Origin: Acidiphilium acidophilum
Lineage (GTDB): Bacteria; Pseudomonadota; Alphaproteobacteria; Acetobacterales; Acetobacteraceae
Length of the DNA: 64,000 bases
NCBI RefSeq assembly: GCF_033842475.1
Contig: NZ_JAWXYB010000018.1
Location: forward strand, 3,393,501 to 3,457,500
Direction: 5' to 3'
Shown piece by piece: positions 40,970-56,593 of the stretch. The position numbers and the translations under genes are program-made. Each line of letters opens with the position of its first letter. Position 1 is the stretch's first letter. The notes under the pieces are model-generated. The model saw only the letters and a list, made by a program, of their open reading frames with translations. It ran no database searches and was not told the DNA's origin.

Positions 40970-41091
40970 TTTCGCCTCCTGGATGCACAGAGTCTGGTCA
41001 CCGATCCGCGCTGGTTTGATATCCCTGGAACGCCGCCATCTCCGGGCGGTGATTGAGCAACCTGATGTCTGGAAAATAGGGCGAGCGGGGG

Positions 41092-42273
41092 TCAGGCATC
41101 CTGGTAGTCCCACTTGATGTAGCCCTTGGTGTCGGCGGCCCATTTTTCATCGATTTCGACGAGGACGGCGCTGACGAGGCGTTCGAGGGAGGCTTCGTTG
41201 GGGAAGACCCTGATTTTGGTGGTGCGGCGTTTGAGTTCCTGCTGGATGCCGCGTTCCATGGGGTTGGAAGTGCGAAGCCGGCGCTGGTGGGGTTCTGGCA
41301 GTGTGAAGACGGTGAGGCCTTCGGGGATATTTCGTTCGAGCCAATCGGCGAGCTTTGGTGCGGTGTCGCGATAGGCATTGACGAGGGTTGTGAGAGCGAT
41401 CTGGGCAGCGGCGAGGGAATTTGCGTTCCAGACGGTCCGGAGTTCTGCGCCGATGCGTTTGCGGATGGCGTGGTTGGGGGCGTGGTGGATGGCGTTTTGG
41501 GCGAGGTGGAACTGGCATCGTTGCCAGTGTGCGGCGCCGAAGACGGCGCGGCGTGCGGCGTGCAATCCGGCATGGTCATCGGAGACGATGAATTCGACGC
41601 CTCGCAGGCCACGCTGATGGAGGCTTTCGAGGAAGGCACGCCAATGGACTTCGGCCTCGGAAAGGGCGACCGAGACGCCGAGGACACGGCGGCGTTCATC
41701 GGGTCCGATGCCGATGGCCGAGAGCACGGCGGCATCGCGGACGACGCCATTATCGCGCATTTTTTCATATCTGGCGTCGAGGATGAGGTAGCGGATCTCG
41801 GCGAGGGGTCGGGTGCGCCAGGCGGCGAGTTCGTCATCGAGCAGCTTGCTGGCGCGGCTGACCTGAGCGGAGGAGAGGCTTTCGATGCCGAATTCGCGCA
41901 TGACGGCCTCGACGTCGCGGGTGGAGACGCCTTTGATGTACATTTCGGCGACGGCGACCATGACGGCGCGGACCGAGCGTCGGCCGCGTTCGAGGGACTG
42001 TGGGTAGAAGGGTTCGCCCACGTGACCGGCGGTTTTGGGGACATCGACGGTGATCGACCCGGCCGGGGTATCGATCCGCTTGGGCTTGTAGCCATTGGCG
42101 TAACCCTGACGATCGGGGTTGCGCTCGTAGTGACTGGCGTGGAGGAAGCGTTCGCGCTCGATCTGCATGGCGAGTTCGAAGGTCCTGGCAAATACCGTGG
42201 CGATATCGCCTGCGCCGTTTTCGATCAGATGTTCCAAAAGTGCCTCGATAATCGTATCCTTTTTGGCGTCCAT
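41092..42273 (-). CDS. IS256-family transposase
   Basis: A 393-residue DDE transposase (Transposase_mut type), full length for the family. Catalytic residues are expected in YLILDARYEKMRDNG (first D), EFIVSDDHAGLHAARRAVFG (second D) and SNPMERGIQQELKRRT (E), followed by the typical IRVFPNEASLERLV end. Because no frameshift or stop interrupts it, the element may still be active. The opposite strand of this gene also has a 1-kb open frame, which I regard as a shadow. Confidence 0.95.
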   Translation of the reverse strand: MDAKKDTIIEALLEHLIENGAGDIATVFARTFELAMQIERERFLHASHYERNPDRQGYANGYKPKRIDTPAGSITVDVPKTAGHVGEPFYPQSLERGRRSVRAVMVAVAEMYIKGVSTRDVEAVMREFGIESLSSAQVSRASKLLDDELAAWRTRPLAEIRYLILDARYEKMRDNGVVRDAAVLSAIGIGPDERRRVLGVSVALSEAEVHWRAFLESLHQRGLRGVEFIVSDDHAGLHAARRAVFGAAHWQRCQFHLAQNAIHHAPNHAIRKRIGAELRTVWNANSLAAAQIALTTLVNAYRDTAPKLADWLERNIPEGLTVFTLPEPHQRRLRTSNPMERGIQQELKRRTTKIRVFPNEASLERLVSAVLVEIDEKWAADTKGYIKWDYQDA

Positions 42274-42325
42274 TCATCGGTCTCCATGTTGGTGTGAACA
42301 ACTGCATGGAATACCAGAATGAACA

Positions 42326-42355
42326 GCCCTTGCCGGGGCATGCCCCGGCAAGGGC
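42326..42355. repeat. 30-nt perfect palindrome upstream of the IS256 transposase
   Basis: A perfect self-complementary 30-mer, centred between 42340 and 42341, lies between the transposase start and the outer inverted repeat. Its 16-nt core is identical to the palindrome at 34389-34404. It may block transcription entering the element or be an older repeat inside the element's end. Confidence 0.6.
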
Positions 42356-42454
42356 ACCAACTCCCAACCCAAAATGAATTTCCAGACGTCAGGTTACACC
42401 ACCCGGGCGGTCGCGCGATACTAAGCATCATGTCGCCCATGGTCACGTCTTGCA

Positions 42455-42587: not shown

Positions 42588-43865
42588 ATGCTCGACCAGC
42601 AGGCGACTTTCGCACAGATCGGCGACTTGCTGGAAAGGCGGCGGCCCGGCCATAGTCTGCCGGGGGCGTTCTACAATGATCCGGCGATTTTCGACTTCGA
42701 TCTCCGCGAGATTTTCGGCCGCTCCTGGCTGATGGTCGGCTTCGAGGTCGAGGTCGCGGCACCGGGGAGCTACCTCGCCCTCACCATCGGTCGCAGCCCC
42801 ATCGTGGTGTGGCGCGGGATGGACGGGGTGTTGCGCGGGTTTTTCAACTCCTGCCGTCATCGCGGCGCACAGATCCTGCCGGATGGCTGCGGCACCGCCG
42901 AGCGGATGATGTGCCCCTACCATCAATGGATGTACGACGATCACGGCGCCCTGCGCGGCGCGGGCCGGATGCCGCGCGATTTCGACAAATCGGAGCACGG
43001 GCTGAAACCCATCCATGTCCGCACCGTCGCGGGGACGCTCTACGTGTGCCTTGCGGACGACGCGCCCGATTTCACCGCCTTTCACGACAAGGTCGCGCCG
43101 ATGCTGGCGCCGCACGACATGCTGAACGCCAAAGTCGCGGCCCAGGCCACGCTGGTCGAGCGCGGCAACTGGAAACTGGTGATGGAAAACGCGCGGGAGT
43201 GCTATCATTGCTCGGCGCGCCACCCGGAACTCTCGGTCTCGTTCCCGACAGATGCGCGGGGCAATTTCCTCAGCTCCGAGCGGGTCAACATCCAGAACTT
43301 CCAGGAGCGGATGGAAGCGCTGGGCCTGCCGAGCGCGCCGGTCGAAGGCGCATGGTGGCAGGCCTCGCGCTTTGCCCTGCGCGAGGGCAACGCCTCGATC
43401 ACCCTCGATGGCCAGCCCTGCGTCAGGAAGCCGATGTGCGCCATCAACGGCGGCGATGTCGGCTCGATGCGCTGGGCGCTGGAGCCGCATAGTTTCTGCC
43501 ACGCGCTGGGCGATTTCACCTTCATGTTCATCGCCCTGCCGGTCGCCCCGGAGGAGACCATCGTGCTCGCCAAATGGCTGGTCCACAAGGACGCGGTCGA
43601 AGGCGTCGATTACACGGTGGACGATCTGGTCAATGTCTGGAACGAAACCAATCTGCAGGACCGCGATCTGGTCGAGACCAACCAGCGCGGGGTCAATTCC
43701 CTCGGCTATCAGCCCGGACCGTACAGCGAGATTTCGGAATCCCTCGCGATCCGCTTCGTCGACTGGTACGCGGCCCAGGTCAAAGCCCAGATCGCGGCTC
43801 AGCTCGCGTCACCGATCCCCCACGCGCTCGTCACCGGCCAGCGCCCGATTCTGGCCGCCGAATGA
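42588..43865 (+). CDS. Rieske-type oxygenase alpha subunit (quaternary-amine demethylase-like, second copy)
   Basis: A 425-residue GbcA/stachydrine-demethylase-like oxygenase. Rieske ligands are C89-x-H91 and C109-x2-H112 (CRHRGAQIL... MMCPYH), and the mononuclear iron is held by H207 and H212 in NARECYHCSARHPEL. It clearly differs from GbcA at 18.9 kb throughout, so it is a paralogue and not a recent duplicate. The family acts on betaines such as glycine betaine, proline betaine and carnitine. No reductase follows; GbcB could supply electrons. It is the first gene of a five-gene run with overlapping starts; GGAG precedes the ATG. Confidence 0.85.
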   Translation: MLDQQATFAQIGDLLERRRPGHSLPGAFYNDPAIFDFDLREIFGRSWLMVGFEVEVAAPGSYLALTIGRSPIVVWRGMDGVLRGFFNSCRHRGAQILPDGCGTAERMMCPYHQWMYDDHGALRGAGRMPRDFDKSEHGLKPIHVRTVAGTLYVCLADDAPDFTAFHDKVAPMLAPHDMLNAKVAAQATLVERGNWKLVMENARECYHCSARHPELSVSFPTDARGNFLSSERVNIQNFQERMEALGLPSAPVEGAWWQASRFALREGNASITLDGQPCVRKPMCAINGGDVGSMRWALEPHSFCHALGDFTFMFIALPVAPEETIVLAKWLVHKDAVEGVDYTVDDLVNVWNETNLQDRDLVETNQRGVNSLGYQPGPYSEISESLAIRFVDWYAAQVKAQIAAQLASPIPHALVTGQRPILAAE

Positions 43866-45118
43866 TGGCGGATCGCCCGCACCCCGACACGATCGCGGTC
43901 GGCGCGGGATACGACCCCGCCGCGCATCACGGCGCCGCCAAACCGCCGATCTATCTGACTTCCACCTTTGTCTATCGCGATGCGCTTCACGCCAGAACCG
44001 CCCATGAAGGCTATCTGGCCGGCCGCGCCCCGGAGTCGGGTCCGGATGAAGGCTATATCTACGCGCGGCTCGATCACCCGAACCTGCAGATGCTCCAGGA
44101 ACGGATGGCGGCGCTCGATCGCGCCGAGGCATGTGCGGTGTTCAACTCGGGCATGGCGGCGATTTCGACCACCCTGCTGTCGCTGGTGCGGCCGGGCGAA
44201 AGCGTGGTGCATACCAGCCCGCTCTACGGCGGCACCGATGGGCTGCTGAACAATCTGATGGCGCCGGTCCACGGAGTGAAGGCGTTTGCGATCGGCGATG
44301 CGGTCGATGAATCCGCGATTTCCGCTTCGGTCGACCGGGCGCTGGCGCATGGCCGGCTCGGGGTGATCTGGGTCGAAACCCCGTCGAACCCGCTGGCCGG
44401 GATCGCCGATATCGCGCTGATCGCCCGGATCGCCCGGCGGCTGGAGTTGCAGCAGGGAGCCGCACCGCTGGTCGTGGTGGATAACACCTTCATGGGGCCG
44501 CTGTTGCAGAACCCGCTGGAACAGGGCGCGGATCTCTGCATGACCTCGCTGACCAAATACGCGGGCGGGCATAGCGACCTGCTTGGCGGCAGCGTTTCGG
44601 GGCGGTTCGCCCTGGTCGAGCCCCTGCGCAAGATGCGGACACTGATGGGCACGCATCTCGATCCGCACGGGTGCTGGCTGCTGCTGCGCTCGCTGGAGAC
44701 CATGGGGCTGCGCACCGAACGGGCGGGGCGCAACGCCGAAGCCGTGGCGCGGTTTTTGCGCGATCACCCGAAAGTCGCGCGGGTGACCTATGCCGGGTTT
44801 CTGCCCGAAGGCAGCGCCGCGCGCGCGACCTTCGAGCGCCAATGCGCCGGGGCGGGATCGACCTTCGTGTTCGACATCAAGGGCGGCGAGGCCGAAGCGT
44901 TCCGGATGCTCGATGCGCTCAGGGTGCTGCGCCTCGCGGTCAGTCTCGGCGGGACCGAAACGCTGATCTGCCATTCCGCGACGACGACGCATTTTTCGGT
45001 CCCGAAAGCGCGGCGCGAAGCCTCCGGCGTGAGCGATGCGACCATCCGGCTCTCGGTCGGGATCGAGCACGAGGCGGATATCATCGGCGATCTCGCCCAG
45101 GCGCTGGAAAGGATATGA
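43862..45118 (+). CDS. Cys/Met-metabolism PLP-dependent enzyme (gamma-lyase/gamma-synthase family)
   Basis: A 418-residue PLP enzyme of the cystathionine gamma-synthase/methionine gamma-lyase family. Visible features are IYARLDHPNLQMLQERMAALD, the phosphate-binding SGMAAI, YGGTDGLLNNLM, WVETPSNPL, VVVDNTFMGPLLQNP and the Schiff-base lysine K232 in TSLTKYAGGHSDLLGG. Members catalyse beta- or gamma-elimination or replacement on sulfur or O-acyl amino acids, but the reaction here is unknown. The start overlaps the Rieske stop (ATGA), an unusual partner for this family. Confidence 0.82.
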   Translation: MMADRPHPDTIAVGAGYDPAAHHGAAKPPIYLTSTFVYRDALHARTAHEGYLAGRAPESGPDEGYIYARLDHPNLQMLQERMAALDRAEACAVFNSGMAAISTTLLSLVRPGESVVHTSPLYGGTDGLLNNLMAPVHGVKAFAIGDAVDESAISASVDRALAHGRLGVIWVETPSNPLAGIADIALIARIARRLELQQGAAPLVVVDNTFMGPLLQNPLEQGADLCMTSLTKYAGGHSDLLGGSVSGRFALVEPLRKMRTLMGTHLDPHGCWLLLRSLETMGLRTERAGRNAEAVARFLRDHPKVARVTYAGFLPEGSAARATFERQCAGAGSTFVFDIKGGEAEAFRMLDALRVLRLAVSLGGTETLICHSATTTHFSVPKARREASGVSDATIRLSVGIEHEADIIGDLAQALERI

Positions 45119-45121
45119 TTC

Positions 45122-46612
45122 ATGGATGGTGAGATGCACGCCGATCACCGGCTCGATCCGCACGGCGCGGTCGGCAAGCTGAAGCGGCCCGATCGGGTCG
45201 TCGATGTTCTGGTGGTCGGTGCCGGCCCCGCCGGGATCGCGGCGGCGCTGGCGGCTTCGGCTTCGGGGGCAACGGTTCTGCTGGTCGATGAGCATCCGGT
45301 GAGTACGGCGATGGCGGGGCTCGATGTGCCGTATCTGTTCGGAGGGCGCGCGACGGCAGCGCTCGGCAACCCGGCGCGGATGACCGAGCAGGTGGCCGGG
45401 GCGATGCCGGGGCTGGAAGCGGCCTTCGAGGCGGGCGTCGAGGTGATGCTCAACACCAGCGTCTGGGGCCTGTGGGTCGCGGGGCCGGGATTGCAGGTGC
45501 TGCCCTGCCCGATCGCCGGGCTGGCGACCGAGACAGGTTCATTTTTATGCGGCTATGGCCGCGCGGTGATCGCGACCGGGGCGCGGGATCTGGTGGTGTC
45601 GTTCGCCGGATCGGATCAGCCGGGCGTGATCGGCGCGCAGGGGCTGCATGCCCTGCTGGTTCGCTATGCGGCCTTCGCGGGGCGGGTGGTCACGATCCTC
45701 GGCTCCGGGCGGCTCGCGCTGGAAACCGCGCTGCTCGCGCTGGATCACGGGGTGGCCGTGGCCGCGCTGATCGAGGTGCGGGACGCGCCGCAGGGGCCCG
45801 CGGAGCTGGTGGCGGCGGTCCGGGCGCGCGGGGTCGCGATCAGGTGCGGCGAGGTGCCGCTGCTGGCCGAGACCACGTCCGACGGGGTGGTGGCGCTGCG
45901 GGTGATCCCGGTGGCGGGCGGGACGGTCGTGCGGATCGAATGCGACACCGTATGCCTGGCACTGGGGCTGGTGCCGCAGGTCGATCTGCTCGACGTGCTG
46001 GGGGGCGAACTTGCGCTCGATCCTGATCGCGGCGGCTACGTGCCGGTGCAGGTCGCGGGGCAGACCTCGCTCGCGGCGATCAGTGTCGCGGGGGAATGTG
46101 CCGGGGTCGATGAACCGGGCGGGCTTGCCTACCGGATGGAGTGGATGCGCGCCCTGCTCGACACCGGTGGCAGCGACGTGCTGGCCTGCACCTGCGAGGA
46201 GGTGACACGCGGCGATGTGTTCGCGCTCAATCCCCCCCGCTATCTCGGCGCGGATTCCGAGGCGATGGCGGCGCGGGATTACGCCTCGCTGCTCGGCGAC
46301 GGGCCGCCCGATCACGACCAGATGAAGCGGCTCACCCGGGTTTCGATGGGGCCGTGCCAGGCAAGGCGGTGCCGCGAGCAGGTGGCGATGCTGCTGGCGA
46401 TCGGGGCGAATGTGGAGATCGGCGCGGTCAATCGGGCGGGATATCGCGCGCCGGTGCGGCCGCTGAGCCTCGCCGCGCTGGCGGCGGCGGATGACGCCGC
46501 GAGCCGGGAGGGGTGGGATGTGTGGTTCGGGATCGTGAGCCAGTGGGTGCCGTATGACGAGATCGGCACGGCGCGCGAGGCCGAATACATCGCCGGGGAC
46601 ATGCATTTATGA
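45122..46612 (+). CDS. HcnB/opine-oxidase A-like FAD oxidoreductase with BFD-like [2Fe-2S] domain
   Basis: A 496-residue flavoprotein resembling HcnB, OoxA and the alpha subunits of D-amino-acid dehydrogenases. It starts VDVLVVGAGPAGIAAALAASASGATVLLVDE (FAD), has an NAD-like domain with VTILGSGRLALETALLAL, and ends with a BFD-like iron-sulfur region: CTCEEVTRGDV and, further on, GPCQARRC. In family members this subunit relays electrons from a DAO-type beta subunit; the next gene encodes exactly such a protein, overlapping by 4 bp. The substrate is unknown. AAAGGA precedes the ATG by 11 bases. Confidence 0.82.
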   Translation: MDGEMHADHRLDPHGAVGKLKRPDRVVDVLVVGAGPAGIAAALAASASGATVLLVDEHPVSTAMAGLDVPYLFGGRATAALGNPARMTEQVAGAMPGLEAAFEAGVEVMLNTSVWGLWVAGPGLQVLPCPIAGLATETGSFLCGYGRAVIATGARDLVVSFAGSDQPGVIGAQGLHALLVRYAAFAGRVVTILGSGRLALETALLALDHGVAVAALIEVRDAPQGPAELVAAVRARGVAIRCGEVPLLAETTSDGVVALRVIPVAGGTVVRIECDTVCLALGLVPQVDLLDVLGGELALDPDRGGYVPVQVAGQTSLAAISVAGECAGVDEPGGLAYRMEWMRALLDTGGSDVLACTCEEVTRGDVFALNPPRYLGADSEAMAARDYASLLGDGPPDHDQMKRLTRVSMGPCQARRCREQVAMLLAIGANVEIGAVNRAGYRAPVRPLSLAALAAADDAASREGWDVWFGIVSQWVPYDEIGTAREAEYIAGDMHL

Positions 46613-47763
46613 AAGGGGCTGCGGTCGTCATTATCGGCGCGGGGGTCACCGGGCTGAGTGCCGCGTGGTGGCTGGCGCGCGACGGGGTGGATGTGCTGGT
46701 GCTCGACAAGGGAGTGATCGGCTACGAGGCGTCGAGCCGGAATGGCGGCGGGGCGACCCATTACCAGAGCCCGCTGTTTCATGAGGAGCAGCGGTTGTGG
46801 CCGCTGATGGATCAGTTGCTCGGCTATCCGACCGAGCATCGGCCCGAGCGGATCGTGATCGCGATGACCGAGGACCAGATGGCGCGATATCGGCGGATGC
46901 AGCGGATATTGGCCGGGCTCGGTTATCGGGCGGACATGATGGACCCGCAGCAGGTGCGCGACGCGGTGCCGCTGGCCGGGGACCGGCACATCGGCGGAGT
47001 GCATATCCGCACCGGCGGTCAGGCCAATCCGCAGCGGACGGTGCAGGCCTACGCCTGGGCGGCGCAGGATCATGGCGCGCGGATCGCGCAGCATGTGCCG
47101 GTGCTGGGGATCGAGATGGCGCAAGGCCGCGCGGTCGGGGTGCGGACGAGGGACGGGACGATCGGCTGCGATCAACTCGTGGTCGCGGCGGGGCCGCAAT
47201 CGGGAGTGCTGCTGCGGGGCATCGGGATCGACCTGCCGGTGGCGCCCGCGCGGGCCGAGATGATCGTGACCGAGGCGCTCCCGCTGATGCCGCTCGGCGG
47301 CGTGGATGGCAACGGGCTGTACGGACGCCAGACGCTGCGGGGAAATCTGGCCTATGGCGGCGGCTGGCACGAGTGGATGGATGATCTGCCGCTTGCCGGT
47401 AAACTGCCGCGGCCTTCGACGCCGACGATAACCCAGATCGCGTTGCGGCTGGCGCAGATACTGCCCAAGGCCGCGCATGCGCGGGTGATCCGTTCCTGGG
47501 CCGGAATTGTCGAGAACACGCCGGACGGACGCCCGGTGCTGGACCGGCCCAAAGCGCCGGGGAACGTGACGGTGGCAACGATGTCGAGCGTGGGGTTCGG
47601 CCTGTCACCCGCGAGCGGGCGGGCGGTCCGGGATCTGGTGATGGATGGGCGATGCGGGTTCGCCGAGATCGGCAAATTGTCGTTGGCCCGGTTTGCCGGG
47701 CTGGACCCGGATTGGCGGCGGTTGCAGGGGTGGGTGACGCCGCGCGCCGAGGTGATGGCATGA
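46609..47763 (+). CDS. DAO-family FAD oxidoreductase (HcnC/SoxB-like beta subunit)
   Basis: A 384-residue D-amino-acid-oxidase-fold flavoprotein. The nucleotide-binding motif is VVIIGAGVTGLSAAWWLARDGVDVLVLDKG, followed by SSRNGGG, and the C-terminal part has RSWAGIVENTPDGRPVLDR. It is expected to oxidise an amino acid or secondary amine and pass electrons to the HcnB-like subunit. The usual third small ferredoxin-like subunit of HcnABC-type complexes is missing beside it. Start and stop overlap the neighbouring genes. Confidence 0.82.
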   Translation: MKGAAVVIIGAGVTGLSAAWWLARDGVDVLVLDKGVIGYEASSRNGGGATHYQSPLFHEEQRLWPLMDQLLGYPTEHRPERIVIAMTEDQMARYRRMQRILAGLGYRADMMDPQQVRDAVPLAGDRHIGGVHIRTGGQANPQRTVQAYAWAAQDHGARIAQHVPVLGIEMAQGRAVGVRTRDGTIGCDQLVVAAGPQSGVLLRGIGIDLPVAPARAEMIVTEALPLMPLGGVDGNGLYGRQTLRGNLAYGGGWHEWMDDLPLAGKLPRPSTPTITQIALRLAQILPKAAHARVIRSWAGIVENTPDGRPVLDRPKAPGNVTVATMSSVGFGLSPASGRAVRDLVMDGRCGFAEIGKLSLARFAGLDPDWRRLQGWVTPRAEVMA

Positions 47764-48866
47764 GCCGGGGCAAGGTACTGGTGGTCGGCGGCGGAATTGC
47801 CGGGTTGAGCACGGCCTGGGCGCTGGCGCGGCGCGGGTTTGCGGTGGAATTGTTCGAGCAGGGCGCGCTGCCCTACGCCAGGGCCTCGTCGTATGACGAG
47901 CATCGTATCATCCGGCACGCCTATGGCGACATGGAGGGCTATGCGTATCTGATGCCGTCGGCGTTCCGGGTCTGGGAGGCGCTGTGGGCGGCGATCGGGG
48001 CCACGCATTACGATGCGATGCCGGTGATCTATCTGATGCGCGGCGAAAGCGAATGGTACGAAACCACCCGGCGCTCGATGGGGCGGATGGGCGTGGCGTG
48101 CGAGGATATCCCGATCGAGGCGGCGATGGCGCTGTATCCAATGGTCAATCCCGACGGGGTGACGCGGGTGGTGCGGACCGAGGGGGCCGGGATTTTGTAC
48201 CCGATCCGGATTCTGACCGATCTGGTCAAGCTGATCGCCGGGCTGGGCGTGGTGCTGCACCCGGATACCCGGGTGGAGGCGGTCGATCTGGAAGCGGGTC
48301 TGGTAAGGACCGGCGGCGGGGTGGTCGGTGGCGATGCGGTGGTGGTGACGGCGGGGGCGTGGGTCAACCGGCTGGTGCCTTCGACCATCGGTGAGGCGGT
48401 GCCGTCGCGTCAGGCGGTGATGTTTCTGGCCCCGCCCCCGCGTTTCGCCGCTGCGTGGCAGGCCGCACCGGTGCTGATCGATCTGGGGGCCGAAAGCGGC
48501 ACCTATACCTTGCCGCCGCGGGCGGCAACGCGGTTGAAAATCGGGGATCATCAGTTCACCCGGCGCGGCGATCCCGATGAGGATCGCGTCGGGACCGATG
48601 CCGATGTCGCGCGGCTGACCGAGGCGGCCCGGCGGGCGTGGCAGGATTTCGATGAGTACACGGTGCTGGAACGCAAGGCGTGTTTTTATACCGTGACGGC
48701 GGATGAGCGATTTCTCGTGCGGCGCGAGGGCGCGCGCGGGTGGCTGGGCAGCGCCTGTTCGGGCCACGGCTTCAAGCTGGGGCCGCTGATCGGGGACGGG
48801 ATTGCCGGCGCGATCGCCGGGGAGCGGACCGAGGCGGCGGTTTCGGTCTGGGCGGCGGGGCGGTAG
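47760..48866 (+). CDS. Monomeric sarcosine oxidase/N-methyltryptophan oxidase-like flavoprotein
   Basis: A 368-residue DAO-fold oxidase. The FAD motif is VLVVGGGIAGLSTAWALARRGFAVELFEQG. The segment KACFYTVTADERFLV matches the covalent-flavin motif of monomeric sarcosine oxidases (K-x-C-x-Y-T-x-T-x-D), with C308 as attachment residue. The C-terminus has SACSGHGFKLGPLIGDGIA. Such enzymes oxidise N-methyl amino acids to amino acid, formaldehyde and H2O2. As this organism also has SoxBDAG, another substrate, such as an N-methylated amino acid made by the Rieske enzyme, seems likely. The start overlaps the upstream stop. Confidence 0.82.
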   Translation: MSRGKVLVVGGGIAGLSTAWALARRGFAVELFEQGALPYARASSYDEHRIIRHAYGDMEGYAYLMPSAFRVWEALWAAIGATHYDAMPVIYLMRGESEWYETTRRSMGRMGVACEDIPIEAAMALYPMVNPDGVTRVVRTEGAGILYPIRILTDLVKLIAGLGVVLHPDTRVEAVDLEAGLVRTGGGVVGGDAVVVTAGAWVNRLVPSTIGEAVPSRQAVMFLAPPPRFAAAWQAAPVLIDLGAESGTYTLPPRAATRLKIGDHQFTRRGDPDEDRVGTDADVARLTEAARRAWQDFDEYTVLERKACFYTVTADERFLVRREGARGWLGSACSGHGFKLGPLIGDGIAGAIAGERTEAAVSVWAAGR

Positions 48867-54270: not shown

Positions 54271-54549
54271 ATGTTGCAACCGACAATCCTGAACGCAACC
54301 CTCGCGCTGGCCGTCATGCTCGGGCTCATCACCGGCCTCGCGTGGCTGATCCGCCGGCTCGGGTTGATCGCTCTGCTCGACCGCGCCGGAACCCCCCGCC
54401 GCATCGCGGGGCGGGTGTCCCTGGCGCTCGACAAGGGCCGCCGCCTTTCGATCGTGGAGGTGGAAGGCTGGCGCTTCGCCGTGCTCACGGGCGGGAGGTC
54501 GGATCAGTTGCTCATGCTCGAAGCCCCCGCGCGCAAGGAGAGCGTCTGA
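54271..54549 (+). CDS. fliO: Flagellar biosynthesis protein FliO
   Basis: A 92-residue single-pass membrane protein helping FliP assemble. The N-terminal hydrophobic segment is NATLALAVMLGLITGLAWLI, followed by a short cytosolic domain with VSLALDKGRRLSIVEVEGWRFAVLTGGRSDQLLML, the typical FliO sequence. The stop overlaps the first base of fliP (TGATG). A GGAG motif lies upstream of the ATG. Confidence 0.87.
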   Translation: MLQPTILNATLALAVMLGLITGLAWLIRRLGLIALLDRAGTPRRIAGRVSLALDKGRRLSIVEVEGWRFAVLTGGRSDQLLMLEAPARKESV

Positions 54550-54830
54550 TGCGCAAATCTGTCCTGCGCCGGGCCTGCATCGTCGCGATCGCCGCCGCCG
54601 GATCGGTCGGCATTGCGCACGCCCAGTCGGTTTCGCTCGATCTCGGGCATGGCGGCGCACCGGAAACCGCGAAACTGATCCAGCTCGTGCTGTTCATCGG
54701 GCTGATGGCGCTCGCCCCCAGCCTGCTCGTGATGCTCACCGCCTTCACCCGCATCATCATCGTCCTCAGCATCCTGCGCACCGCTCTGGGCATGCAGACC
54801 ATGCCGCCCAATACCGTGCTGATCGGCCTC
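54549..54830 (+). pseudogene. fliP: fliP, 5' part (interrupted by IS4-family insertion)
   Basis: The first 94 codons of the flagellar export gate protein FliP: a signal-type N-terminus (MRKSVLRRACIVAIAAAGSVGIAHAQ), then LIQLVLFIGLMALAPSLLVMLTAFTRIIIVLSILRTALG and MPPNTVLIGL. At 54830 the reading frame enters the insertion and continues 27 codons to a stop at 54914. The rest of FliP, starting ALFLTYFVMQP, is at 56123-56593. Joining the halves at the duplicated target gives a normal 250-residue FliP. Confidence 0.95.
54821..54830 (+). repeat. Target-site duplication, left copy
   Basis: GATCGGCCTC at the left edge of the IS4-family element, identical to the copy at 56113-56122. It corresponds to fliP codons for the end of the IGL motif. 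Confidence 0.9.
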
Positions 54831-56112
54831 TCAGGAATCCCCCCATTTTCCATAGGTCCAGGTATTGCGCCGATTCGCTGCGATTCTCTACCAAGCGTTG
54901 GAATGCATGGATGAGGGTGGATCATGGGAATTGCAGCATCGAAAAAGCGTGATGGTGGGCGGTTGAAGGACATCCGCGCATTCATTGACGAGTTGTATGC
55001 CCACGATCTCCACGCCAAACGCGTTGACTCCCTGTCTGCTGCGACACTGGGCGTGATGACCGGCGCGTCGCTCGCCGTCGCGATGATCGGTCAGGCGTTG
55101 GCACAGGCGCGCGGGCTGGTGACCAAGCACGCGATCAAGCAGGTTGATCGCATGCTCAGTAACGAGAGTATCGACGTCTGGGAAAGCTTCGCCCGTTGGG
55201 TACCGCATCTGGTGGGTTCGCAGACCGACATCGTCGTTGCCATGGACTGGACGGATTTCGACGGCGACGATCAGGCAACGTTGGCGCTCAACCTGGTGAG
55301 CAAGCATGGCCGGGCGATGCCTCTGTTGTGGCTGTCGATGTGGAAAGAGGAATTGAAAGATCAGCGCAACGCCATCGAGGATACTTGCCTGCGCCGCCTG
55401 TCGGAGGTTGTCCCGCCCGGCTGCCGCGTGACCATCCTGGCCGACCGCGGCTTCGGTGACCACAAGCTGTTCGCGTATCTTACGGAGCTTGGCTTTGCCT
55501 ATATCATTCGCTTCCGCGGCAACATCCATGTCACCGATGCCGCAGGCGAGACGCGAACCGCGGCGGACTGGGTCGGCAAATCGGGCCGGGCGCGCAAACT
55601 GCGTGGTGCGCGCGTCACCGCCTCGCACGCCTATCAGGTCGGTGCCGTGGTGTGCGTACATGCGCGTGACATGAAGGAGCCGTGGTGCCTGGCGAGCAGT
55701 GACGCCGTGGCGTCTGCAGGGACATTGATCAAGCAATATTCCCGGCGCTGGACGATCGAACCCAGCTTCAGGGACGTCAAGGATTTGCGTTTTGGGATGG
55801 GGATGGCTGAGATCCGCATCGCCGAACCAGAGCGGCGCGATCGGCTGCTGCTCATCAGCGCGTTTGCGATGGCGCTGCTGACCATGCTCGGGACGGCAGG
55901 CGAGAGCCTGGGAATGGATCGACAGCTCAAGTCCAACACTTCGAAGACCCGCTCACACTCGTTGTTCCGTCAGGGGTGCATGCTCTATGAATTGATCCCG
56001 AACATGCCGAAGCACCGGCTACTGCCCCTGATGCGGCGGTTCACGGAAATGCTGCGCAGCAGCGGCATATTCGGCAATTCCATGCCGGCTACGTAATGAG
56101 GGGATGAGTGAG
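54830..56112. mobile_element. IS4-family insertion sequence inside fliP
   Basis: A 1.28-kb element with short imperfect terminal repeats: left end TCAGGAATCCCCCCATT, right end (reverse complement) TCACTCATCCCCTCATT. Its host sequence GATCGGCCTC is present at both borders (54821-54830 and 56113-56122), a 9-10 bp target-site duplication; the exact end is ambiguous by one base. It has one intact transposase gene. The identical target copies and intact transposase suggest a recent insertion. Confidence 0.92.
54924..56096 (+). CDS. IS4-family transposase
   Basis: A 390-residue DDE transposase. The catalytic aspartates are in VVAMDWTDFDGDD and VTILADRGFGDHKLF, and the YREK-type signature is YSRRWTIEPSFRDVKDLRFG, all typical of the IS4 group. 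It is uninterrupted. The ATG lies 93 bp inside the left end of the element. Its base composition is less GC-biased than that of the surrounding genes. Confidence 0.95.
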   Translation: MGIAASKKRDGGRLKDIRAFIDELYAHDLHAKRVDSLSAATLGVMTGASLAVAMIGQALAQARGLVTKHAIKQVDRMLSNESIDVWESFARWVPHLVGSQTDIVVAMDWTDFDGDDQATLALNLVSKHGRAMPLLWLSMWKEELKDQRNAIEDTCLRRLSEVVPPGCRVTILADRGFGDHKLFAYLTELGFAYIIRFRGNIHVTDAAGETRTAADWVGKSGRARKLRGARVTASHAYQVGAVVCVHARDMKEPWCLASSDAVASAGTLIKQYSRRWTIEPSFRDVKDLRFGMGMAEIRIAEPERRDRLLLISAFAMALLTMLGTAGESLGMDRQLKSNTSKTRSHSLFRQGCMLYELIPNMPKHRLLPLMRRFTEMLRSSGIFGNSMPAT

Positions 56113-56122
56113 GATCGGCCTC
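56113..56122 (+). repeat. Target-site duplication, right copy
   Basis: GATCGGCCTC at the right edge of the IS4-family element, identical to the left copy. The next base continues fliP in frame. Confidence 0.9.
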
Positions 56123-56593
56123 GCTCTGTTCCTGACCTATTTCGTGATGCAGCCGGTCTTTGCGCAGGCATGGCATGTCGGGTTGCTGCCGATGACCCAG
56201 GGCAGCATCGATACCATGACCGGCATCAGCCGCGCCGCCGCCCCGTTCCACACCTTCCTCGCCCAGAACACCAGACCGGTCGATATCCGCATGTTTTCCA
56301 CCATCGCCCATGCCACCATCCCGGCGCATCGGGCCGAGGTCACATGGCGGGTCCTGATCCCGAGCTTCGTGGTCGGCGAACTCCGGCGCGGCTTCGAGAT
56401 GGGGTTCATGATCTATCTGCCGTTCATGGTGATCGACCTCGTGGTCGCGGCCATCCTGATGAGCCTGGGCATGATGATGCTGCCGCCCACCGGCGTATCG
56501 CTGCCGTTCAAGCTGATCTTCTTCGTGATGATCAATGGCTGGCAGCTGATCTGCGGCAGTCTGGTCCGCAGCTTTCCGATCCCGCATTTCTGA
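56113..56593 (+). pseudogene. fliP: fliP, 3' part (downstream of IS4-family insertion)
   Basis: The C-terminal 156 codons of FliP: ALFLTYFVMQPVFAQAW, then LIPSFVVGELRRGFEMGFMIYLPFMVIDLVVAAILMSLGMMMLPP and SLPFKLIFFVMINGWQLICGSLVRSF, which are the gate-forming helices. The coding frame is intact to the stop at 56593. A GTG inside the right end of the IS (56108) is in frame with this fragment, so a separate C-terminal polypeptide could in theory be made. Without the N-terminal part a working export gate is unlikely. Confidence 0.95.

Follow-up and report, generated by a model that had tools for sequence, protein, structure and literature searches.

A conserved five-gene Rieske, PLP enzyme and flavoprotein operon in Acidiphilium acidophilum and its possible role in the breakdown of a trimethylated amino acid

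We analyzed a stretch of 64,000 nucleotides from Acidiphilium acidophilum (assembly GCF_033842475.1, contig NZ_JAWXYB010000018.1, positions 3,393,501 to 3,457,500), here called the window, and within it a row of five genes that joins a Rieske oxygenase to a pyridoxal phosphate (PLP)-dependent enzyme and three flavin adenine dinucleotide (FAD) proteins. According to a list of open reading frames (ORFs) and a recheck of the sequence, all five frames are open on the forward strand at the following coordinates.

42588-43865, + strand: Rieske oxygenase, oxygenase subunit of the quaternary-ammonium type (group V), proposed for the first N-demethylation from Pfam, PDB and tree evidence
43862-45118, + strand: PLP-dependent enzyme of Cys/Met metabolism, proposed gamma-lyase from its NF005455 match and conserved catalytic residues
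45122-46612, + strand: HcnB-like / SoxA-A3-like FAD subunit (Pfam Pyr_redox_2 and SO_alpha_A3; matches to 2gag_A, 1vrq_A and 1y56_A)
46609-47763, + strand: HcnC-like FAD subunit of the DAO family (Pfam DAO; top PDB match 1y56_B), proposed for the second N-demethylation
47760-48866, + strand: MSOX-like (monomeric sarcosine-oxidase-like) FAD oxidase of the DAO family (match to 7exs_A), proposed for the third N-demethylation

Start and stop codons overlap as ATGA at 43862, 46609 and 47760, and 3 bases separate the PLP and HcnB-like genes. Three such overlaps and so short a gap make it likely that the five genes form one co-transcribed, translationally coupled unit. The original prediction, made from the sequence alone, had described five linked genes of these families at these positions, and the reading frames as well as the Pfam, NCBIfam and PDB matches bear this out. 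The terms HcnB and HcnC are loose labels taken over from it, and no model so named is among the matches listed.

We searched GTDB genomes using the Rieske protein as query and obtained at least 574 relatives, of which the best 80 were kept as loci and viewed with 10 kb on each side of the Rieske gene. Downstream order could be assessed at the 65 loci with at least 4.3 kb of downstream sequence. Recurrence of the gene order in other genomes, which the original prediction had left to be checked, was observed for four genes at 58 of these 65 loci (PLP, HcnB-like and HcnC-like genes in order behind the Rieske gene and on the same strand), with the MSOX-like gene also present in 18 of the 58. A grouping kept this often is more than chance, and the five-gene set is a real, conserved operon. 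Its hosts belong to the Acetobacteraceae/Acidocellaceae, Rhizobiales, Caulobacterales, and Sphingomonadales, and the nearest named loci are those of Acidiphilium sp. PA (L001) and A. rubrum (L002), with Rieske proteins 88% and 87% identical to that of the window. Among 240 genomes drawn evenly from the class, only two contained the adjacent set at the thresholds used (G000 and G040, the latter with a Rieske identical to that of locus L003), while HcnC-like relatives occurred in 3 further genomes and PLP relatives in 11 further ones, none beside such a Rieske. The operon is thus widespread but sparse. Presence of the PLP gene on the Rieske tree requires 9 changes, compared with a mean of 23.0 after shuffling, and does not mark a single clade; some of the apparent losses (L024, L058, L107, and L030) come down to a locus that is short, a contig end or a truncated match. 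At two loci where Rieske relatives have no PLP gene or HcnBC-like pair in place, ArgE/DapE-type deacylase genes adjoin them (L007, 2219-3541; L015, 8436-9887).

The first gene contains the Pfam domains Rieske and Ring_hydroxyl_A, and its closest solved relatives by sequence are 3n0q, 3vca (Stc2), and 4qup. Its best NCBIfam match is GbcA (NF058607) at 414.7 bits against a cut-off of 670; a GbcA-like Rieske encoded upstream in the window also misses this model (439 bits), and the cut-off alone decides little. The operon protein is 39.2% identical to this GbcA-like protein and 42.8% identical to an Stc2-like protein of S. meliloti encoded beside an annotated stc4 gene. Group V Rieske oxygenases are described, in PMC7948474 and PMC10952381, as having a Rieske centre with two His and two Cys, a bridging Glu, and Cys-x-x-Cys beside the His residues of the mononuclear iron. 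The corresponding residues of the operon enzyme (C89/H91, C109/H112, E204, C205/C208, H207, H212, and D358) are invariant in a 37-row alignment. A structure predicted from 37 sequences (mean predicted local distance difference test score, pLDDT, 91.8; predicted template modelling score, pTM, 0.90) matches in fold 3n0q best, followed by four stachydrine demethylase entries (template modelling score, TM, 0.86-0.87 by query length for all of these), then CntA; 3n0q, 3vca, and 4qup are among its best matches in fold as well.

We placed the operon Rieskes and their close relatives in a 95-row maximum-likelihood tree together with the window's GbcA-like protein and Rieskes from Paracoccus and Ancylobacter plasmids. 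With 100/100 support, 85 rows made up of the operon Rieskes and their close relatives group in one branch, apart from 10 GbcA-side rows, which include the GbcA-like protein of the window and the plasmid Rieskes. In the division of quaternary-amine Rieskes given in PMC7948474, clade Va has Tyr or Phe at CntA position 203 and clade Vb (GbcA, Stc2) has Asn. The window's enzyme has Ala202 at this position, and the branch has 50 Ala and 32 Gly among 82 rows, which sets the operon Rieske outside clade Vb as characterized there; three more distant branch rows, kept out of this count, also have Ala. Asn occupies the position in 10 of 10 GbcA-side rows, as well as in the Stc2-like protein of S. meliloti and in relatives from TM1040 and Phaeobacter. 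The branch further differs at residues 258 (Gln in 79/82; Arg in 10/10 outside), 297 (Ala in 80/82; never Ala outside), and 303 (Phe in 82/82; Trp in 10/10 outside). In the predicted structure, residue 202 is at a helix end directly before the iron-ligand stretch, and the other three lie in strands. These diverged positions may provide a roomier pocket, and we count them in favour of the pathway proposed below.

The second gene encodes a Cys_Met_Meta_PP protein that passes the model NF005455, named 'cystathionine gamma-synthase family protein' (520.5 against 504), and falls short of the methionine gamma-lyase model TIGR01328 (341.3 against 549.7); its best solved relatives, 5ijg and 7swh, have general or putative names only. 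All 69 operon copies have Tyr67, Arg69, Tyr122, and Lys232, and 66 have Arg396, the remaining 3 showing a gap there. We take these to be the PLP-binding Lys and catalytic Tyr and Arg residues, and on that footing the protein has the makeup of a general Cys/Met PLP lyase. With methionine and cystathionine gamma-lyases it shares the fold family and catalytic residues, and with the former a Val-Ser-Leu-Gly stretch as well as the Ile and Leu of an IYxRL stretch (each in 69/69 copies), which reads VYxRF in most of 14 other family members collected. It departs from methionine gamma-lyase in having Gly, in 69 of 69 copies, at the position of what is presumably the active-site Cys of that enzyme, and from cystathionine gamma-lyase in having Val where the latter has Glu. 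Operon copies outside Acidiphilium are 54-63% identical to the window's protein (57 loci), compared with 33-51% for the 14 others, and are by sequence a tight group.

One locus exchanges the PLP enzyme for a relative. In L005 (7392-9733), which is rearranged, a divergent MSOX gene is followed on its own strand by a methionine-gamma-lyase-type PLP gene (455.5 with a methionine gamma-lyase model whose cut-off is 666), while an SBP_bac_5-type transporter and the HcnBC-like pair lie downstream of the Rieske gene. Finding another superfamily member among these genes speaks for a lyase role of the operon enzyme, though it is a single case.

The two middle genes resemble two-subunit FAD amine dehydrogenases such as HcnBC, opine oxidases, and the 1y56 complex, in which Pyr_redox_2/A3 and DAO subunits are likewise encoded in tandem, and we propose that they form such an enzyme. 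Both match chains of the 1y56 complex, 1y56_B being the top match of the HcnC-like protein and 1y56_A the third of the HcnB-like protein, behind two sarcosine oxidase alpha chains (2gag_A and 1vrq_A). Cysteines near the C-terminus of the HcnB-like protein suggest, by eye, a [2Fe-2S] site. HcnABC-type enzymes are encoded by a three-gene set that includes a small HcnA-type gene; the operon differs in having no such gene and no room for one, as the 3-base gap is followed by an overlap. Outside Acidiphilium, the HcnC-like proteins are 61-67% identical to that of the window in 57 loci with the PLP gene.

The fifth gene product is a DAO protein that scores below the cut-offs of the N-methyl-L-tryptophan oxidase model (169.7 against 257) and of soxA_mon, TIGR01377 (135.2 against 479.65). 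Aligned with 7exs_A, it conserves the RIIR, Lys, Cys, and GHGFK positions, among which are presumably the Cys that binds FAD covalently and the Arg and Lys that hold the substrate carboxylate in monomeric sarcosine oxidase. For this and all further linkage counts, we used the 68 of 80 loci defined by a PLP gene behind the Rieske gene. An MSOX-like gene is present in 18 of them, SoxB plus SoxA in 31, both in none, and neither in 19. Since the two enzyme types never occur together, they are apparently interchangeable for one role. The HcnC-like gene of a Novosphingobium capsulatum plasmid (L082, 15246-17183) is followed by one for a CocE/NonD-family hydrolase, in the place that SoxB/SoxA or MSOX takes at other loci.

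We also counted genes linked to the 68 loci by similarity to one representative per family, the annotated families being a selection of the recurring ones. A LysR regulator is the most constant (50/68), and transport functions include MFS proteins (16/68), TonB receptors (12/68), choline/ChoW-type permeases (6/68), and OpuAC-type binding proteins (4/68); the last two, and choX and choW beside the operon in the window, are counted in favour of the pathway. Genes for one-carbon (C1) disposal, namely glutathione-formaldehyde dehydrogenase (8/68), formate dehydrogenase beta (8/68) and alpha (7/68, named by place and size), and formyltetrahydrofolate deformylase (6/68), fit demethylation. A GbcB-like reductase gene accompanies the Rieske gene inside the operon at six loci (L003, L008, L009, L013, L023, and L080). 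An AceE-like E1 gene (12/68) suggests that the pathway product is a 2-oxo acid; its AceE model score of 155 against a cut-off of 860 makes it a distant relative and at most a putative dehydrogenase. An alpha/beta hydrolase (14/68) with a GYS[MQ]G motif and, by eye, a signal-peptide-like start is counted in favour of a lipid source. Aldehyde dehydrogenase (11/68), enolase-family dehydratase (7/68), and GMC oxidase (5/68) genes rise above threshold all together only in L020 and L065, with partial sets, incomplete or cut off by the contig stretch, in L041, L067, L069, L072, L075, and L079. A fatty-acid-desaturase-like gene is found near 9 of 68 copies, recurring downstream of the operon in L074 (17533-19427, followed by an EamA transporter gene) and in other Rhizobiales loci.

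We hypothesize that the operon serves the catabolism of an alpha-N,N,N-trimethylated amino acid through three oxidative N-demethylations followed by cleavage by the PLP enzyme, a reading to which we would give a probability of roughly 0.6. The Rieske oxygenase, with electrons from a GbcB-like reductase, would remove one methyl group as formaldehyde; the HcnB/HcnC-like FAD complex would convert the dimethyl to the monomethyl form; and the MSOX-like oxidase, or a SoxB/SoxA-type enzyme in other lineages, would take off the last methyl. These three steps are read from families, gene order, and replacement patterns. PLP-dependent gamma-elimination would then split the primary amino acid into 2-oxobutyrate, ammonia, and a leaving group, as the PLP family, its catalytic residues, and the swap for a methionine-gamma-lyase-type gene suggest. 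Both stepwise demethylation of a betaine-type amino acid and action of the PLP enzyme on a beta- or gamma-substituted product had been predicted at the outset, and these comparisons of sequence lend them support.

For the substrate, our tentative first choice is an N,N,N-trimethylhomoserine unit, free or as a glyceryl ether, from the betaine lipid diacylglyceryl-trimethylhomoserine (DGTS) of other organisms. The DGTS head is trimethylhomoserine, an alpha-trimethylamino acid with a gamma-oxygen in an ester-bearing glycerolipid, and is the abundant natural compound that fits best. A search of the genome of A. acidophilum for BtaA (PF11899), a family found in 1 of 14 control genomes, gave no match, so DGTS would come from outside. 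A dedicated head-group pathway is possible, if somewhat doubtful: an exported esterase would yield glyceryl-trimethylhomoserine, a Rieske of a third specificity class and two flavoenzymes would demethylate it, and a PLP gamma-lyase would release glycerol along with 2-oxobutyrate and ammonia. Alternatively, the glyceryl ether could be opened by the GMC oxidase, aldehyde dehydrogenase, and enolase-family dehydratase in some Caulobacterales and Novosphingobium.

Several points weigh against this reading. At 7 of the 65 testable loci, L005 among them, the three downstream genes are not in place, and the 19 operon loci with neither MSOX nor SoxB plus SoxA are explained only in part by lack of sequence. 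LysR aside, no linked gene reaches half of the loci, and which ones occur depends on the lineage; loci of related genomes, moreover, are not independent. The scheme gives no function to a TPR-sulfotransferase-domain gene that lies near 10 of 68 copies. The signature is shared only in part by a Mesorhizobium relative, 51.6% identical and annotated with no PLP gene in its vicinity: it has Ala202, but at positions 258, 297, and 303 it has Thr, Ser, and Tyr. That these positions line the pocket is read from the alignment. HcnC-like proteins (60-63% identical; HcnB-like 38-43%) are also encoded, with no such PLP gene accompanying them, in Paracoccus, Ancylobacter, and three sampled genomes, and on the Paracoccus and Ancylobacter plasmids (HcnC-like 61-63%, HcnB-like 40-43%) they accompany a GbcA-type Rieske; the pair may therefore not be specific to the pathway. 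We know of no citable precedent for gamma-elimination of a glyceryl ether, and the substrate, suggested by families and gene context, is a candidate only. The plasmid loci themselves (L081, L083, L084, and L086) encode the GbcA-type Rieske, a reductase, and the HcnBC-like pair together with a carbon-nitrogen hydrolase and glycine betaine transporters, and constitute a possible sister pathway.

Choline and glycine betaine genes adjoin the operon upstream. The choX and choW products pass their models, as do SoxA (1417.6 against 1164) and SoxB (694.5 against 529); beside the GbcA-like Rieske is an ORF named GbcB-like by eye from the ORF lists, in the same way as genes for choline dehydrogenase, betaine aldehyde dehydrogenase, DgcAB-like proteins, and Etf. 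An insertion sequence (IS) separates choX from the operon and lies about 190 bases before the Rieske start.

41059-42395, no strand assigned: IS256/Mutator-family element, outside the pathway, with a Transposase_mut domain and 17-nt terminal inverted repeats (41059-41075 and 42379-42395, 94% identical)

This element is not at the corresponding site in Acidiphilium sp. PA or A. rubrum, and it may alter expression of the operon. Elsewhere in the window (54342-56593), the flagellar gene fliP is seemingly split by another IS with a DDE transposase (54924-56096); of the 191 positions of the FliP model, the ORF preceding it covers only 2-47, and the ORF behind it resembles the remainder by eye.

The strongest rival explanation, unlikely in our estimate, is a second module that converts glycine betaine to glycine by a Rieske, a dimethylglycine dehydrogenase, and a sarcosine oxidase, in which the PLP gene would be a passenger or meet some other need. 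It is the strongest because the flavoenzymes are of sarcosine-oxidase types and HcnC-like relatives occur with GbcA-type Rieskes. Known glycine betaine demethylation (GbcAB, dimethylglycine demethylase, and sarcosine oxidase) likewise consists of three successive oxidative N-demethylations with a Rieske first, a sarcosine-oxidase type last, and C1 genes nearby; choline and glycine betaine genes adjoin the operon, and the PLP-free set of Paracoccus occurs with glycine betaine transporter and sarcosine oxidase genes. However, the operon departs from that system in its Rieske, which is off the GbcA branch with another signature, in its HcnBC-type second enzyme, and in its extra PLP enzyme, which keeps its place at 58 of 65 loci. 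The Paracoccus Rieskes group with GbcA, Asn is replaced by Ala or Gly in 82 of 82 rows, and the window already has the GbcA-like Rieske, GbcB-like ORF, SoxA, and SoxB described above. The one operon-type SoxA tested falls short of the SoxA model (989.5), though the one operon-type SoxB passes its own (650.5). A mere duplicate of GbcA was marked down on the branch position and the Ala/Gly signature.

Quite unlikely, in our view, is the same demethylation sequence acting on a sulfur- or selenium-containing or other gamma- or beta-substituted betaine, such as methionine betaine, a cysteine-type betaine, or an ergothioneine-related compound. The PLP enzyme's membership in the Cys/Met family, the methionine-gamma-lyase-type gene of L005, and the recurring sulfotransferase gene would suit it, but the invariant Gly at the methionine gamma-lyase Cys position does not, and apart from the sulfotransferase no sulfur-handling gene is among the annotated recurring families. 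A sulfur-containing substrate, raised as an option in the original prediction, thus has no specific evidence in its favour.

It is improbable that the PLP enzyme is biosynthetic, carrying out gamma-replacement in methionine or cysteine synthesis, and merely co-transcribed. The model it passes is named for cystathionine gamma-synthase; however, the enzyme has a constant place behind the Rieske, the AceE-like gene recurs nearby, and four other Cys/Met-type PLP genes are present in the genome, the closest full-length one 39% identical (in a search with six rows, one being the query itself and two being the halves of a single 454-codon frame). With these others at hand, the operon enzyme need not be a housekeeping cystathionine enzyme, an alternative that we marked down; together with the conserved order, this removes one ground on which the prediction could have fallen. 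The other was that a known betaine such as stachydrine explains the genes, which we consider highly improbable: Stc2/Stc4 is likewise a Rieske for an alpha-quaternary amino acid, and both sequence and fold place stachydrine demethylase among the top PDB matches (TM 0.87/0.93 to 3vca), but the operon Rieske lies outside the GbcA branch, has Ala or Gly for the Asn of GbcA and Stc2 along with other changed positions, and is only 42.8% identical to the Stc2-like protein, no gene of the five is by family a proline enzyme, and the operon adds flavoenzymes and a PLP lyase, the lyase with no evident use in such a pathway; the shared fold of the predicted model speaks against outright rejection but does not tell substrates apart.

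In the open-licence literature searched (no preprints and few subscription papers, so that a description may exist unseen), no paper among those listed gives an account of this gene set, of bacterial trimethylhomoserine catabolism, or of the breakdown of a betaine-lipid head group. The pathway is apparently undescribed, as the original prediction had supposed in knowing of none with this combination. In many algae, mosses, ferns, fungi, and phosphate-starved bacteria, betaine lipids take the place of phospholipids. Their replacement of phospholipids in Phaeobacter is described in PMC10132767. If the proposed route from DGTS is true, the operon would add a third specificity class to the quaternary-amine Rieske oxygenases, and its diagnostic residue and gene order make breakdown of the betaine-lipid head directly testable. 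Even with another substrate, the operon would represent a conserved and apparently undescribed pathway for obtaining nitrogen and C1 units.

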